A stretch of DNA of 64,000 bases, from positions 1,302,001 to 1,366,000 of the forward strand of contig NZ_CP142435.1 of the NCBI RefSeq assembly GCF_039830095.1, in the 5' to 3' direction. Both the position numbers and the translations under genes were made by a program. Position 1 is the first letter of the stretch. Each line of letters starts with the position of its first letter. Under the pieces are notes generated by a model. That model was given only the letters and a program-made list of their open reading frames with translations. It ran no database searches and was not told the origin of the DNA. Of this stretch, positions 23,849 to 30,759 are shown one piece after another. The stretch is from Dolosigranulum savutiense. GTDB taxonomy: Bacteria > Bacillota > Bacilli > Lactobacillales > Carnobacteriaceae_A.

Positions 23849-23973
23849 TTTATAAATGATTTTTTTGTGAATATTGCTTGCCTTTTTGTATGGTTTTAGG
23901 ATAAAGTGGAGGTATCAGATTTATATTGCTCAATAAATAACAGATTATGATGGAATATATAGGAGGAATAGCT

Positions 23974-25563
23974 ATGAAGCATAAATGGTGGAAAAAATTA
24001 AGTGTCTCAGCGGCTGTTGTGGCACTATTAAGTGGACCAGCAATAAATATTGTCGGAGCAGAGGAAGCATTTACCGAAGAAGATTACAAAGAATATAATT
24101 TACCAATTGATATTGACCCGTATAACCGCGGTGAGGAGATTAAAGCGGAAAAGCCAGCGGGGAGAGCATACACCAGTAAGGATTTCCCGGGATATCCAGA
24201 TGATCAAGTGTTAGCCGCGCATGTTAGATTAACGGATGTAAAGCAAAATGGAAAAATGTACGATAGTGATACGTGGGATTATTATGGACCACAAGAAGAT
24301 GCTGAGATCAATCCATATTTGATGGAGGATAGTGAGTTGGCGGATGCACGCATACCGTTCACAACGTATTCTTACACGGAAACACCGGAGATGGGTGGAG
24401 GCCACCTGCGATCCTTAACTTACCGCGATAATGGTGATGGTACAGTGACATATATTCCACAAGTCAGCTACTTCAGAGATTACGAAGGGCATGAAGGAGC
24501 GGAGTGGCACGAAGATTACGTCCGTCGCTTATTTACTGATGTGCGGACAGTTGAACTTGAAGAAGCAACCGATGAGGAAATGCAACATGTCTTAGATCAT
24601 ATGACGGTCTATAATGTGGAGGGCACCGATTATACAGCAGACACGAAATCGACGGAGGACGCCACTGAAGAGTTCGCTGAAGAACAAGCAACTGATCCTT
24701 TAGAAGATAACCGTGTGGATGAGCATACGATATCTTTCCCAGACGACCTGGATCCAGAAGCTCGCGGAGAAGAGATTAAAGCAGAAAATCCAGCTGACAA
24801 AATTTTTACGCATGAAGATTTTCCAGATCATACTGATGAAGAAATTTTTGCTGCCCATGTGAGACATACTGCTATAAAACAAATTAATGTACGAGCTGAA
24901 GCAGAAGGATATGAACCTACTTATGCGGATACTTTTAATACGTGGGAGTATTATGCCTCTAAGATTCTAGATATAATTTATGATGATTCAGAATTAGATA
25001 GAGATGTTGTGAAGTCTCCTTTTGTAGTACACGAATTGCGCAATATTCCCAATGTAGCTACTGAGTATGATTCGATCTTTTATCGTAAAAATGATGATGG
25101 TACATTTACAGATTTAGATTTACACATTCGTTTAATGAATAAAACAGCAGAAGAGGTAGAAAATCCACAAGAATTTGCAAGAACAGTCTTCAATCATTTG
25201 AAAACTTATGAGTTAGAGGCAGCAACAAAAGAAGATATTCAAGGTCACCTTGATGCATTAGCTAAAAGCAACCCGATGGATCCCGCAGAGCTACCAGATA
25301 AAAAACCACAAGAATCAGCTAAAGAAAATAAATCAGTCGTTGACTCAAAAGATGTAAACAAAGAAAAAGAGAAGCAAGAAAACCAACAGGAAACTAAAAA
25401 AGAAGAAAAACAGCTGGAGAAGAAAGACGAGAAGAAACCAGAAAATAAAACATGGAGTGAGCGGTTACCAGACACCGCTACGACAGCGTGGATATTGGCG
25501 GTAATTGGGATTGTTGCTGTACTTGCGGGCATTGCGGTTAAAAAATTTAGAAAAGATAAATAA
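23974..25563 (+). CDS. LPXTA-anchored surface protein with two tandem domains
   Basis: A 529-residue secreted protein. It has a signal peptide (MKHKWWKKLSVSAAVVALL, cleavage likely after VGA), two related domains of about 200 residues, a Lys/Glu/Gln-rich linker, and a C-terminal sorting signal: LPDTA, a hydrophobic helix and KKFRKDK. The domain starts align as RGEEIKAEKPA with KDFPGYPDDQVLAAHVR against RGEEIKAENPA with EDFPDHTDEEIFAAHVR. Sortase would cleave within LPDTA, an LPXTA variant of LPXTG. ATG 23974 follows AGGAGG. I do not recognise the repeated domain; an acidic surface-adhesion or wall-binding role is possible but unproven. It seems to be a single-gene unit with terminators on both sides. 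Confidence 0.85.
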   Translation: MKHKWWKKLSVSAAVVALLSGPAINIVGAEEAFTEEDYKEYNLPIDIDPYNRGEEIKAEKPAGRAYTSKDFPGYPDDQVLAAHVRLTDVKQNGKMYDSDTWDYYGPQEDAEINPYLMEDSELADARIPFTTYSYTETPEMGGGHLRSLTYRDNGDGTVTYIPQVSYFRDYEGHEGAEWHEDYVRRLFTDVRTVELEEATDEEMQHVLDHMTVYNVEGTDYTADTKSTEDATEEFAEEQATDPLEDNRVDEHTISFPDDLDPEARGEEIKAENPADKIFTHEDFPDHTDEEIFAAHVRHTAIKQINVRAEAEGYEPTYADTFNTWEYYASKILDIIYDDSELDRDVVKSPFVVHELRNIPNVATEYDSIFYRKNDDGTFTDLDLHIRLMNKTAEEVENPQEFARTVFNHLKTYELEAATKEDIQGHLDALAKSNPMDPAELPDKKPQESAKENKSVVDSKDVNKEKEKQENQQETKKEEKQLEKKDEKKPENKTWSERLPDTATTAWILAVIGIVAVLAGIAVKKFRKDK

Positions 25564-25616: not shown

Positions 25617-26300
25617 TTATGTGTATAATATAATATGGTGTTGTTGTCGATAAGTTAATTGACGATCAAGACCATAGATGACACCGACCATGAGTGCCGT
25701 CATAACAGAGAAGATTGCTAACATCGGCACTTGGAAATTAAGAGCCGGTGGTAATTCTTGTAAATAGCTATAGTTGTAACCGAGGATTTGGTTGAAGATA
25801 ACAATAACGATATTCATTGTTACAGAGTAAGCTAAGACACGATGCCACTCAAGGGCAACTTTTTCCTGGGATAGAACCATCATACCGATTAAAATAAGGA
25901 GCACATGATTGCCGATATACGTGATGTTGGAAACATGTGGCCAAAGATAAGGAGATGGATCCGGAACACTAAAGGCAACGAGAGCCCCAACTAATCCAAG
26001 CCAAGCAAAGAATTTTGTCAATTTTGGCCGGTGAGTGAAGTAACCAATACCGGTCATAATTGCAGCGATTCGACAATGATAGAGGGGCAAACCTTCCATT
26101 AAAAACAACTTTGGATTGCCTAAATACCAGTATAACATTAACCCTTGCGTACCTAAGCCAAGGACAATTAATGTGGTCAAAAGCTTCTCATTTGTGCGAA
26201 AGCGATATACAATTAATGTTGCTATGAATAGTCCAAACCATACCCAAGGCATTTGGATACTTGTCTGTCCATCCTCAACGTATCTAAAGAAATAATTCAT
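25617..26300 (-). CDS. YwaF/TIGR02206-type integral membrane protein
   Basis: A roughly 227-residue protein with about seven hydrophobic helices, starting MNYFFRYVEDGQTSIQM, and containing LPLYHCRIAAIMTGIGYF, HVSNITYIGNHVLLILIGM and FNQILGYNYSYLQELPPALN. These patterns match the TIGR02206/YwaF family of uncharacterised membrane proteins. Several ATG codons (26306, 26303, 26300) follow AGGTG; the start is uncertain by a few codons. It is transcribed convergently with the surface-protein gene and divergently from the ECF operon. No function is known to me. Confidence 0.8.
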   Translation of the reverse strand: MNYFFRYVEDGQTSIQMPWVWFGLFIATLIVYRFRTNEKLLTTLIVLGLGTQGLMLYWYLGNPKLFLMEGLPLYHCRIAAIMTGIGYFTHRPKLTKFFAWLGLVGALVAFSVPDPSPYLWPHVSNITYIGNHVLLILIGMMVLSQEKVALEWHRVLAYSVTMNIVIVIFNQILGYNYSYLQELPPALNFQVPMLAIFSVMTALMVGVIYGLDRQLTYRQQHHIILYT

Positions 26301-26445
26301 CATCATCACCTATTTTTGTTAATATACGATCTATTTTTTATGTTGTTTTGGTACTTTAGATTATAGCGGAAGCTGGATAAAATAGTAAGGGAATATAGTT
26401 TATATGAGTAAAATATAATGAAATAAAAAATTATTCTTCAAATGA

Positions 26446-26481: not shown

Positions 26482-26737
26482 ATCATTATATGAACAAAAA
26501 CAAAGATACGGTATCTGTTATTATGACTATTAAAGAGACTTCCTGTTTTGGTGCGAGGGAAGATAATCAGATAATAGATAATGGCTGTGGAGTTATGTAA
26601 GTGAGTCTATGAGGATAAGCTTATATCGGGTTATGTCGTTAACCATAATATGAGAAGATATTTCATTGCTTTATTGGTGTATCTAAATTTGGGTGGTAAC
26701 ACGGATTTTTCGTCCCTTGTGTTGCTGCCCTTTTTTT
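26482..26737 (+). promoter_or_regulatory. T-box riboswitch, possible Met specifier
   Basis: A T-box leader senses uncharged tRNA and controls termination. The T-box sequence TGGGTGGTAACACGG is at 26690-26704. The competing terminator pairs GGGTGGTAACAC (26691-26702) with GTGTTGCTGCCC (26719-26730) using G-U pairs, then seven T. Upstream, AAAGAGACTTCC, an apical GGTG at 26550-26553 and GGGAAG form the typical distal end of stem I, above a CTATTA/TAATAG stem (26527-26532 and 26573-26578). After the latter stem, ATG at 26581-26583 followed by G fits a specifier triplet for tRNA-Met. The class is clear; the specifier is inference. Confidence 0.85.
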
Positions 26738-26774
26738 ATTCAATATAATGAAAAATAAAAAGGGAGTGACTGTT

Positions 26775-27329
26775 ATGTCATTTAAGTTGAGTACAAAGGA
26801 AATAGTAGGCGTCGCGATTGGTGCAGCATTATTTGGAGTGTTAATGGTATACGGTGGAATTACCATTTTTACGAACACTAAATTATCGAGTGCTTACGTC
26901 ATTCCAGTCATTATTGGGGCGTTATTTGGACCGATTCCAGCAGCTTTAGTCGGATTAATTGGTAACTTTTTTGCAGACTTTTTAGGTGGATGGGGTTACT
27001 GGATTGATTGGTCAGTGGGGAACTTTTTTGCGTGTTTCTTTATCGGATCCTTACAATTGTACGGTGCGAACATTAAACGTGGACTTTTTACTACAAAGCA
27101 TGCTCTTATTTTTAGCATCCTTTCAATTTTGGGTATTGGGGTATCTTTTGGACTGATCACTCCATTATTAACGCTTTTGTTTTTCTCAGGGGAAGTGACG
27201 ATTACATTTTCACAAGCTTTTGCAGCAGTAATCTCTAATGCGACTGTTGTGCTTGTTGTCGGGATTCCACTTCTTTTTGGGTTATCTAAGCGTTATAAAA
27301 ATCAGTCAAATTTAATTGAAGAGGATTGA
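26775..27329 (+). CDS. ECF transporter S component, substrate unknown
   Basis: Substrate-binding membrane subunit of an energy-coupling-factor importer. The 184-residue protein has about five or six hydrophobic helices and family features such as GVAIGAALFGVLMVYGG near the start, VIPVIIGALFGPIPAALVG and GNFFADFLGGWGYWIDWSVG, as in ECF S components that use a coupling helix with small-residue motifs. ATG 26775 has AGGGAG eight bases upstream; an earlier ATG (26748) lacks one. The T-box and the downstream SAM hydrolase-type gene suggest a methionine-related or adenosyl/thio compound as substrate, but this is inference. Confidence 0.82.
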   Translation: MSFKLSTKEIVGVAIGAALFGVLMVYGGITIFTNTKLSSAYVIPVIIGALFGPIPAALVGLIGNFFADFLGGWGYWIDWSVGNFFACFFIGSLQLYGANIKRGLFTTKHALIFSILSILGIGVSFGLITPLLTLLFFSGEVTITFSQAFAAVISNATVVLVVGIPLLFGLSKRYKNQSNLIEED

Positions 27330-27334
27330 TCTAA

Positions 27335-29023
27335 TTGGATCCAATTATCTCGTTTAAAGAGTTTACATTTAAATATGAGACACAACAGAAGCCAACATTG
27401 ATAGATATTAATTTGGACATCTATCCAGGGGAAAAGATATTAATTCTCGGGCCAAGTGGTAGTGGGAAGTCTACGCTAGGAAATTGTATTAATGGGCTAA
27501 TTCCGAATCATTTTGAAGGGACGCTTTCTGGGGAGTGTGTTGTTGATGGTCAGTTAGTCAATGAACATTCAATTTTTGATATTTCAAAATCTGTAGGGAC
27601 AATCTTGCAAGATAGTGATGCTCAATTTGTTGGACTAAGTGTCGCAGAAGATATTGCCTTTAGCTTAGAAAATCAAGCCATGTCACAAGTTGAGATGTCT
27701 CAAAAGGTTTATCATGCAGCTAAAATAGTGGGGGTTAATGATATGTTGAATCAGCTACCGTATTCTTTAAGCGGTGGCCAAAAGCAACGGGTAGCTATGG
27801 CGGGTATCTTGCATGAAAACATAAAAATTTTATTGTTAGATGAACCCTTGGCTGCTCTTGATCCAAAAATGGGTGAAAAAATGGTGGAATTAATTGATCA
27901 ACTCAATCAGAAAAAGCAATTAACAGCGGTGATTATTGAACATCGATTAGAAGAGGTTTTACATCGATCAATTGATAGGATCGTGTTAATGGATAAAGGC
28001 CGGATTGTAACAATTACTACGCCTGATGAATTATTACACAGCTCTCTACTAAAGGAATATGGGATTCGTGAGCCGTTATATATTAGTGCGATTAAAAAGA
28101 TCTTGCCGGATGTTGTACTCCCAGAGCAAATTGACTCGCTAGCTCATATTGACTTATCCACTACCAAGGTGACACTTACTAACGAAACAACTTCGCCAAA
28201 ACATTTAACTAGCGATGTTAAAGTGAATTTGATAGAGATGGATCATGTGGCGTTTAGTTATGATAACTCCCCGTTTATTGCAATTGATCAGTTAATTATC
28301 GCAGCGGGAGAGCGGATTGCTATTCTTGGTGAAAATGGCTCTGGAAAAACCACTCTTGCCCGGTTATTAACAGGGGTGTGCCAGCCGAATGCTGGTCAGG
28401 TGAAAAGAGTAGGAAATCCTACGACACTGAAAGAAATTGCCCGTCTTATCGGTTATGTGATGCAGAACCCTAATCAAATGTTAGTTGAAGATATTGTTTA
28501 CGATGAGGTGAAGCTAGCTCTTGAAAAGCGAAACTATTCTAAAGCAGAAATCGACGAAATTGTACGTGACGTATTGGAGATAACAGGCTTATACAGTCGA
28601 CGTAATTGGCCGATTAATGCACTTAGTTATGGTCAGAAGAAACGTGTGTCCGTCGCTGTTGTACTCGCGTTGCGACCGAAATGTATTATTCTTGACGAAC
28701 CAACTGCTGGACAAGATTATGCACATTACCGGGAAATGATGGAATTTGTGCAGTCACTGAATGAAAAGTATCAGATGACCGTTATCTTTATTACGCATGA
28801 TATGCATCTCGCTTTAGAGTACACGGATCGAGCGATTGTGATGGAAGATGGTAAAATCATTGCTGATGATGCGACATTTTCTGTTTTGAATAATGACCCA
28901 ATACTGGCGCGTGCTTCACTAAAGAAAACATCTATTTTTAAATTAGCCAATAAATTGAATGTCGATCTTGAATCATTTATTAATATATTTATTGATAGGG
29001 AAAGGGCTGAATATTATGAATAA
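27335..29023 (+). CDS. ECF transporter fused ATPases (A1-A2)
   Basis: Energising subunit with two ABC ATPase domains in one 562-residue chain. The N-domain has GPSGSGKSTLGNCINGLIP, LSGGQKQRVAMAGIL and LLLDEPLAALDP. The C-domain has GENGSGKTTLARLL, LSYGQKKRVSVAVVL, in which the signature reads LSYGQ instead of LSGGQ, and IILDEPTAGQD. The start is TTG 27335 with GAGGA nine bases before it. It follows the S component by five bases and overlaps the T component. This is a dedicated (group I) ECF module with its own ATPases, rather than one sharing the general EcfAA'T. Confidence 0.9.
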   Translation: MDPIISFKEFTFKYETQQKPTLIDINLDIYPGEKILILGPSGSGKSTLGNCINGLIPNHFEGTLSGECVVDGQLVNEHSIFDISKSVGTILQDSDAQFVGLSVAEDIAFSLENQAMSQVEMSQKVYHAAKIVGVNDMLNQLPYSLSGGQKQRVAMAGILHENIKILLLDEPLAALDPKMGEKMVELIDQLNQKKQLTAVIIEHRLEEVLHRSIDRIVLMDKGRIVTITTPDELLHSSLLKEYGIREPLYISAIKKILPDVVLPEQIDSLAHIDLSTTKVTLTNETTSPKHLTSDVKVNLIEMDHVAFSYDNSPFIAIDQLIIAAGERIAILGENGSGKTTLARLLTGVCQPNAGQVKRVGNPTTLKEIARLIGYVMQNPNQMLVEDIVYDEVKLALEKRNYSKAEIDEIVRDVLEITGLYSRRNWPINALSYGQKKRVSVAVVLALRPKCIILDEPTAGQDYAHYREMMEFVQSLNEKYQMTVIFITHDMHLALEYTDRAIVMEDGKIIADDATFSVLNNDPILARASLKKTSIFKLANKLNVDLESFINIFIDRERAEYYE

Positions 29024-29864
29024 CAACTTTCTTATTCGTTATCATTTAGGTGAATCTTTTTTCGAATCATTACAAGCCCGAACAAAAATTTTATTTTTTA
29101 TATCATCTTTAAGCGTTTTGATGGTGTCATTTGATTTAAGAATTATTGTACCATTTGCCCTGTTACATCTGTTGATTTTTTTAAAGGTTAGACGTTTTAA
29201 TGATAGTAAAACCTTTAGATTTGTTTTATGGTTTACATTTATTATGAATCTAATTAATTTTGTTTTATTTTATTTATTTGATCCACTGATAGGATCGAAT
29301 TTAGCCAATAAGACCACGGTGCTACTGCAATTTTCAAACTACTTTGTAATCACAAGAGAAACTCTCATTTTTTTCTTGGCCCGCTTATTAAAGATATTTG
29401 GCACATTATTTACCAGTTTCTGGTTAATATTAATTATTACGCCTAGTCAGATTGCATCAGGCCTCTATCACTTGGGGGTGCATTATAAGATTGGGACGAT
29501 GATTTCGTTAGGTTTACGATTTATACCAGATGTAGTACGCGACTATTCGGCCATAAAAGATGCTATGCAAATGAGAGGGTATGAGTTAGATACGAAGGAA
29601 GCGGGGATACTTACACGACTAAAGGCTTCAATTAGTATATTGCTCCCTCTGATATTAACCTCACTAGAAAAGGTGGGTACGGTCTCCAGTGCCATGGATT
29701 TACGCGGATATGGATTACATAAGAAGCGAACATATTACAATGAATTACCGTATACTGCTGCGGATACATTCGTATTAGTTGTATCAGGTATTCAAGTTGC
29801 TATTTTTGTATGTTATTTATATTTGAGAATAACAGGGCGAGTTAGTCGGTTATGGGTATGGTAA
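29016..29864 (+). CDS. ECF transporter T component
   Basis: Membrane coupling subunit linking the fused ATPases to the S component. The 282-residue protein has about five helices and the two family coupling motifs, MISLGLRFIPDVVRDYSAIK with the following QMRGYELD and, about 40 residues later, SSAMDLRGYGL. ATG 29016 is preferred over 28959 because AAAGGG precedes it; it overlaps the ATPase stop by eight bases. Its presence completes an S-A1A2-T importer. Confidence 0.88.
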   Translation: MNNNFLIRYHLGESFFESLQARTKILFFISSLSVLMVSFDLRIIVPFALLHLLIFLKVRRFNDSKTFRFVLWFTFIMNLINFVLFYLFDPLIGSNLANKTTVLLQFSNYFVITRETLIFFLARLLKIFGTLFTSFWLILIITPSQIASGLYHLGVHYKIGTMISLGLRFIPDVVRDYSAIKDAMQMRGYELDTKEAGILTRLKASISILLPLILTSLEKVGTVSSAMDLRGYGLHKKRTYYNELPYTAADTFVLVVSGIQVAIFVCYLYLRITGRVSRLWVW

Positions 29865-29892
29865 ACAATTTATAATAATTAGGAGTATGCAT

Positions 29893-30759
29893 ATGAAAAC
29901 ATTAGTGTTACAATCAGATTTTGGATTAGATGATGGTGCAGTTAGTGCCATGCATGGGGTTGCTAAGCAAGTTAATCAGGCGTTAGAAGTTAGCCATATT
30001 ACACATAACATTCCACAATATGATATTTGGACAGCTTCATATCGGTTAATCCAAACTGTCGAGTATTGGCCTGCTGGAACAGTTTTTGTATCAGTAGTGG
30101 ACCCGGGAGTAGGTAGTCATCGGCGAAGTATTGTAGTGAAAACAACAACTGATCATTATGTTGTGACGCCAGACAACGGGACGTTAAGTCATCTATTAAA
30201 TATTGGTATGATTGAATCAGCTCGAGAGATTAATGAAGAAGTGAATCGCTTACCGCACTCTAGAGAAAGTCATACATTCCATGGACGTGATATTTATGCG
30301 TTCAATGGTGCGAGATTAGCAAGTGGTGAAATTGAATATGATCATTTGGGAAATGATATCCCCGTTAATTCATTAGAACAGATTGATATTACTTCACCGA
30401 CTGCAACTGACACATCAATTTCAGGCAACATTGATATTTTTGATATACGTTTTGGTTCAATTTGGACCAATATTTCAATTGATGAGTTTAAAACATTATC
30501 AATCGCGCCAGGAGAATTGGTCTATGTAACTATAAGACACCGCAACAAACTCGTCTATCAAAATGCGATTCCATTTATGCGGTCATTTAGTGGTGTAGAA
30601 ATCGGCGAACCGCTATTGTATATTAACTCACTCACTAATATTGGTGTAGCAGTAAATCAAGGCTCATTCTCAGCATTATACAACATTGGATTCGGCCCAG
30701 ATTGGTATATAAAAATTAAAAAAATTGATAATGAAAAATATTATGATTTAATTGATTAA
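29893..30759 (+). CDS. SAM hydroxide adenosyltransferase (DUF62) family protein
   Basis: Enzymes of this family cleave S-adenosylmethionine, using hydroxide from water, to adenosine and methionine. The 288-residue protein has LVLQSDFGLDDGAVSAMHG at the start, VDPGVGSHRRSIVVK, VTPDNGTLSHLL and FHGRDIYAFNGARLASGE, the conserved blocks of the DUF62 N-terminal domain, followed by a smaller beta-rich C-terminal domain. ATG 29893 has AGGAG at seven bases; ATG 29887 is too close. It is the last gene of the T-box-ECF operon, 28 bases after the T component, suggesting that it processes or balances the transported metabolite. Confidence 0.88.
   Translation: MKTLVLQSDFGLDDGAVSAMHGVAKQVNQALEVSHITHNIPQYDIWTASYRLIQTVEYWPAGTVFVSVVDPGVGSHRRSIVVKTTTDHYVVTPDNGTLSHLLNIGMIESAREINEEVNRLPHSRESHTFHGRDIYAFNGARLASGEIEYDHLGNDIPVNSLEQIDITSPTATDTSISGNIDIFDIRFGSIWTNISIDEFKTLSIAPGELVYVTIRHRNKLVYQNAIPFMRSFSGVEIGEPLLYINSLTNIGVAVNQGSFSALYNIGFGPDWYIKIKKIDNEKYYDLID

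Follow-up and report, generated by a model that had tools for sequence, protein, structure and literature searches.

Enzymes of the DUF62 family hydrolyse SAM, and one of them, StDUF62, prefers (R,S)-SAM (PMC12120602, PMC10491745). An Asp-Arg-His triad, absent in halogenases, has been described for these SAM hydrolases (PMC10491745). The authors of the StDUF62 study doubt that hydrolysis of (R,S)-SAM is its physiological role (PMC12120602), and the role of the family is still called unclear or doubtful in recent papers (PMC12120602, PMC10491745). Among transporters, TCDB holds ECF families for a methionine precursor (Met-P, MtsTUV) and for methylthioadenosine (PMC3654945). In Streptococcus suis the "MtsA of methionine-regulated ECF transporter" adjoins a gene annotated as RNA polymerase delta (PMC9423846). 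Homocysteine methyltransferases use S-methylmethionine or SAM (PMC5979542), and in a T-box survey of 2008 the hypothetical protein lmo2587 of Listeria was classed as Met-related (PMC2494555). In the open literature searched, we found no description of a bacterial ECF importer of SAM or of a coupling between DUF62 and an ECF importer.

In this work we analysed a 64,000-nucleotide stretch of the Dolosigranulum savutiense genome (contig NZ_CP142435.1, positions 1,302,001 to 1,366,000), hereafter called the window, in which an ECF importer is encoded together with a DUF62 enzyme. The pairing of this importer with DUF62 or with MmuM in many bacteria suggests that it may import a sulfonium compound. 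DUF62 destroys a costly cofactor, and our comparison ties it to methionine starvation and to an importer in two distant lineages of S components.

The operon and its T-box leader

A T-box leader, an S component, a fused A1-A2 ATPase, a T component and a DUF62 gene form one tightly packed operon with the following features:

26494..26720, + strand: T-box leader RNA, from Stem I to the antiterminator (Rfam RF00230, model positions 1-219 complete)
26581..26583, + strand: specifier codon ATG (tRNA-Met), then the purine G (covariance-model alignment)
26691..26730, + strand: intrinsic terminator hairpin (fold of -21.3 kcal/mol), with T7 at 26731-26737
26775..27329, + strand: ECF S component, substrate-binding subunit, of a second MtsA-like clade (PF07155, 92 bits; NF010182, 119.8 bits; also AlphaFold2 and Foldseek)
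27335..29023, + strand: fused double ECF ATPase, A1-A2, DUF3744 (PF00005 in two stretches; PF12558)
29016..29864, + strand: ECF T component, CbiQ family (PF02361, E 5e-21)
29887..30759, + strand: DUF62 SAM hydroxide adenosyltransferase, a SAM hydrolase (PF01887, PF20257)

The four genes follow each other with a 5-bp gap, an 8-bp overlap and a 22-bp gap, and all components of an ECF transporter (S, A, A' and T) are encoded in the same operon. For the S component, a start at 26775 is more likely than one at 26748 because a GGGAG motif lies 8 bp upstream of the former. The fused ATPase matches TIGR04520 with 414.9 bits and contains two ABC_tran domains. Both SAM_HAT domains are present in the DUF62 protein, the N-terminal (PF01887, 170 bits, E 2.6e-50) and the C-terminal one (PF20257, 66 bits, E 3.5e-18), and the Asp72-Arg79-His132 triad is intact when aligned with the PH0463 structures 1wu8 and 2wr8. 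On the 3' side DUF62 is followed, after 197 bp, by a malic enzyme gene. The divergent 5' neighbour (25617-26309, minus strand) encodes a TMEM164-related integral membrane acyltransferase family protein. Beyond it lies a surface-protein-like gene (23947-25563, plus strand) with a signal-peptide-like start, a sorting-signal-like C-terminal end and two similar halves, for which no Pfam match was found and which NCBIfam weakly matches to the EF2685/EF0750 family.

The leader matches the Rfam T-box model end-to-end with 88.5 bits (E 5.3e-20, 501 bases searched), slightly below the gathering score of 93, which is why a search of the whole window at gathering missed it. Twelve further T-box matches in the host genome likewise score below this value, including the serS leader. 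The covariance model aligns the specifier region as GAU-A-AUG-G against the consensus GAA-auuca. The T-box sequence itself, at 26691-26704, doubles as the 5' arm of the terminator, whose fold (z -5.89) was equalled by none of 200 shuffled sequences. Terminator and antiterminator are therefore mutually exclusive, and the tRNA-binding bulge would be hidden in the OFF state. The usual 5' arm of such a terminator is the downstream CGTCCC strand, which is replaced here by the T-box strand; judged by eye, the same arrangement occurs in another locus (L079, near 6856).

Specifiers of other leaders agree with this reading. The host genome holds 17 T-box matches, of which the window leader is the 7th. 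Among those whose covariance-model alignments were read, AUG lies upstream of metN (two leaders), metQ, a Cys/Met PLP enzyme, luxS and a cyclase/yxjH-like pair, and UCC upstream of serS. As the specifiers fit the downstream genes, this genome contains about seven methionine T-boxes, the window leader included. Three methionine T-boxes, those of luxS, the Cys/Met PLP enzyme and metN, lie within 4 kb of each other outside the window (contig C1, 764671-768631). In relatives, all 11 further leaders of the same S-A-T clade, from Lactobacillaceae and Erysipelotrichia, carry AUG and a purine at the specifier column; with the window leader, 8 of the 12 are backed by the Rfam model and the remaining 4 were read by motif. 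A codon within TTCATGAG of L031 and L036 was considered as specifier and rejected, the covariance-model alignment giving an upstream AUG. For 17 S-A-T-DUF62 loci, mostly clostridial, that lack a T-box motif, no Rfam element for the operon was found at gathering.

The preliminary description of this locus had read a T-box at 26690-26704 with a terminator, an ATG followed by a purine at 26581-26583 as specifier, and an S, a fused A1-A2, a T and a DUF62-type gene in a row. Domain searches confirmed all four genes, and the hairpin and T-box were borne out, the latter at 26691-26704. The alignment to the Rfam model that it had proposed placed AUG, and not a non-Met codon, in the specifier column. 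Control by tRNA-Met, which it had deduced, is now well supported by this alignment, by the conservation in related leaders and by the control genes.

Partner enzymes of the S component

With six aligned S components as query, a scan of the species genomes of GTDB gave 48 loci with 44-67% identity; the same type of contig scan with a single S protein as query gave zero loci. Since the query was the S protein alone, the genes found beside it are independent evidence. The fused ATPase follows S in all 48 loci, and close relatives of the S component are always found in the same S-A-T operon. Ten loci whose contigs stop at most about 1.3 kb past the T gene, or before that point, were left out of the partner count. 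Among the 38 assessable loci, the partner is DUF62 in 35, with one to five copies, and MmuM in 3.

MmuM is the substitute for DUF62 as partner in a branch of the Lactobacillaceae. It was identified as homocysteine S-methyltransferase by NF007020 (354-362 bits, cut-off 215). The gene orders are S-A-T-MmuM (L051, and also L031, an extra locus from a separate genome search and outside the 38), MmuM-S-A-T (L045) and S-A-T-M20-MmuM (L054), and two genomes with the order MmuM-S-A-T (G075, G325) have no DUF62 gene. The S components linked to MmuM form a single clade (support 100/100 in the tree of this set) and differ at otherwise kept sites (S79W, T132N and N154D). The exchange of serine for a bulky residue in S79W would be in keeping with a ligand of smaller size, for instance S-methylmethionine.

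Several S-A-T operons contain additional genes. Some encode a PepV/Sapep-type M20 dipeptidase, its gene standing between those of T and DUF62 or MmuM; in Clostridia a PepV-like enzyme is placed between T and DUF62. In Oscillospiraceae, Erysipelotrichaceae, Christensenellaceae and one Sphaerochaeta bin, S-A-T is followed by four to five or more tandem DUF62 paralogues. The second copy in these arrays lacks the catalytic Asp, Arg and His yet still aligns, and might belong to a mixed trimer or perform a different chemistry. Where DUF62 genes occur in pairs, one copy often has an altered triad (His to Asp, Tyr or Asn; Arg to Gln) and the other is usually intact. These features are located as follows:

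L048:9712-11124; L034:9397-10728; L054:10122-11495; L142:216-1676 (minus strand): M20 dipeptidase in S-A-T operons
L037, L039, L040 (e.g. L040:10321-14162), L046, L053, L061, L063, L064, L072, L075, L078: tandem DUF62 arrays
L028:12023-12901; L035:10929-11768; L038; L041; L059: DUF62 pairs with altered triad

The neighbours of DUF62 were also compared across Lactobacillales, as had been suggested in the preliminary description. DUF62 is present in 140 of 395 genomes, and in 115 of these 140 a second, distant S family, about 30% identical to the window S component, lies within 2 kb of it, typically in the order DUF62-S-A. T-boxes of this second clade (L015, L017, L142, L143) also have an AUG specifier. 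Another 28 genomes have the second S family and no DUF62 nearby. The MtsA labelled in S. suis (SSU0362) fits the second family, and its neighbour SSU0361 is probably a misnamed DUF62, because a DUF62-fold protein in the PDB (7ccg) bears the same odd name, "DNA-directed RNA polymerase subunit delta".

In 25 of the 140 genomes no member of the second S family lies within 2 kb of DUF62. Three of these, one being the window genome, have the S clade of the window, and 18 belong to a Listeria-like family of genomes (f7; L080 to L102). There DUF62 is the sole gene behind a Met T-box of its own (GAAA-AUG-G), and no importer lies next to it. Listeria lmo2587 is likely this standalone gene. As the f7 genomes have no S family of the window type, DUF62 can act in methionine supply without this importer.

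Substrate of the importer

Control by methionine together with the exchange of a SAM hydrolase for MmuM points to a sulfonium methionine donor as substrate. We regard it as probable that methionine starvation leads to import of such a donor by S-A-T and to release of methionine by DUF62 or MmuM. When methionine is short, uncharged tRNA-Met would bind the leader, with ATG at the specifier and the tRNA 3' end at the UGGU bulge, and the antiterminator would then replace the terminator and allow transcription of the operon. The S-A-T proteins, as family and fold show, constitute a dedicated ECF importer. Its substrate would be a sulfonium methionine donor from outside the cell, most likely SAM including its aged (R,S) epimer. 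DUF62, whose triad is intact and whose family has this biochemistry, would hydrolyse the imported donor to methionine and adenosine. In the Lactobacillaceae branch, the replacement of the hydrolase by MmuM and the altered S sites are consistent with a switch to S-methylmethionine, which may be the ligand there. The exchange leaves few sulfonium compounds as candidate substrates, a short list that can be tested. Counting against this reading are the Listeria-like DUF62 genes in genomes that lack the S family, the S-A-T operons with no DUF62 in the vicinity, the M20 dipeptidase of the clostridial operons, the lack of any bacterial ECF importer of SAM in the literature searched, and the doubt voiced by the StDUF62 authors (PMC12120602).

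SAM accounts most simply for both partner enzymes. That the window operon is a dedicated bacterial importer of SAM, including the (R,S) epimer formed extracellularly, coupled to a DUF62 that yields methionine, is a serious possibility, although short of probable. If it holds, DUF62 gains in these bacteria the physiological role that has so far been missing, and the MmuM branch represents an ECF S-methylmethionine importer arisen through a shift of the S component. MetE and a yxjH-like gene are present in the window genome, but MmuM is absent. The role in methionine supply proposed in the preliminary description is well supported by the specifier, its conservation and the control genes; its further proposal of SAM or sulfonium import has been strengthened by the partner swap, the substrate itself still being deduced.

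The importer might instead carry methionine or simple precursors such as methionine sulfoxide, Met dipeptides or N-acyl-Met, with DUF62 merely co-regulated and salvaging methionine from SAM or (R,S)-SAM inside the cell. The lone Listeria-like DUF62 genes under Met T-boxes would agree with this, as would the TCDB family named for a methionine precursor (PMC3654945), and, given the PepV-like M20 dipeptidase of the clostridial operons and of L054 and L142, peptides or acylated methionine could be substrates. This explanation seems rather unlikely to us, since Met T-boxes of the host genome already control MetNPQ-type genes, the S clade is tied specifically to the sulfonium-using DUF62 or MmuM in 38 of 38 loci, and S residues change along with the partner enzyme.

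Import of a nucleoside-type thioether such as methylthioadenosine, with DUF62 or MmuM acting downstream on its products, would recall the TCDB family MtaTUV (PMC3654945) and the binding of 5'-substituted adenosines by DUF62 relatives. It is improbable, as MmuM is not known to use methylthioadenosine, and neither MTA nucleosidase nor MTR kinase was seen in the examined operons.

Database names would make the S component a riboflavin transporter that is under methionine control by chance. The AlphaFold2 model (pLDDT 88.3) has ECF S components as its best 20 Foldseek matches, all with TM about 0.6, so that structure comparison of the model yields the general S-component fold and points to no particular substrate. 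Although NF010182, "riboflavin transporter substrate-binding protein", is matched above its cut-off of 99, along with PF07155, and TmRibU is the best structural neighbour (E 0.005, TM 0.6, on a par with FolT and ThiT), a riboflavin substrate is scarcely credible because a different S gene of the same genome (PF12822, E 4e-31) lies 152 bp downstream of an FMN riboswitch, no solved S component in the PDB, RibU included, matches the window protein in sequence, and the Met T-box control and the DUF62/MmuM partnership are conserved. Identity with RibU was rejected, there being no sequence relation to RibU and the leader being a Met T-box and not an FMN riboswitch; the name "riboflavin" is probably wrong for this clade.

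Comparison with described systems

The preliminary description had regarded the combination as not a described system. This holds only in part: the transporter class has been labelled already, as a prediction (PMC9423846, PMC3654945), and the combination is widespread; the coupling to the enzyme is the part that was not found in the literature searched.

The Met T-boxes of Lactobacillales (RF00230) share with the window leader the full match from Stem I to antiterminator, the AUG specifier, the UGGU bulge and the terminator. The window differs in that the T-box strand itself is the terminator 5' arm and in its score just below gathering. The window enzyme shares its two Pfam domains and the Asp-Arg-His triad with the SAM hydrolases PH0463 and StDUF62; unlike them, it is encoded in an operon with an importer and a Met T-box, suggesting a physiological role. 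In MmuP-MmuM S-methylmethionine utilisation MmuM partners a transporter, as in the Lactobacillaceae variants, but in the latter an ECF importer replaces the amino acid permease, and the window organism has no MmuM.

A further close system is the predicted MtsABC (SEED), or MtsTUV in TCDB, which resembles the window operon in its S component, duplicated ATPase and T component and in its regulation by methionine, exerted in the window by a Met T-box. In S. suis SSU0362 (MtsA) adjoins SSU0361, as the second S family adjoins DUF62. The window S component is about 30% identical to the labelled MtsA family and forms a separate branch, TCDB MtsTUV being compared by description only, and the gene order is S-A-T-DUF62 in the window and DUF62-S-A-T in the MtsA-like second family.
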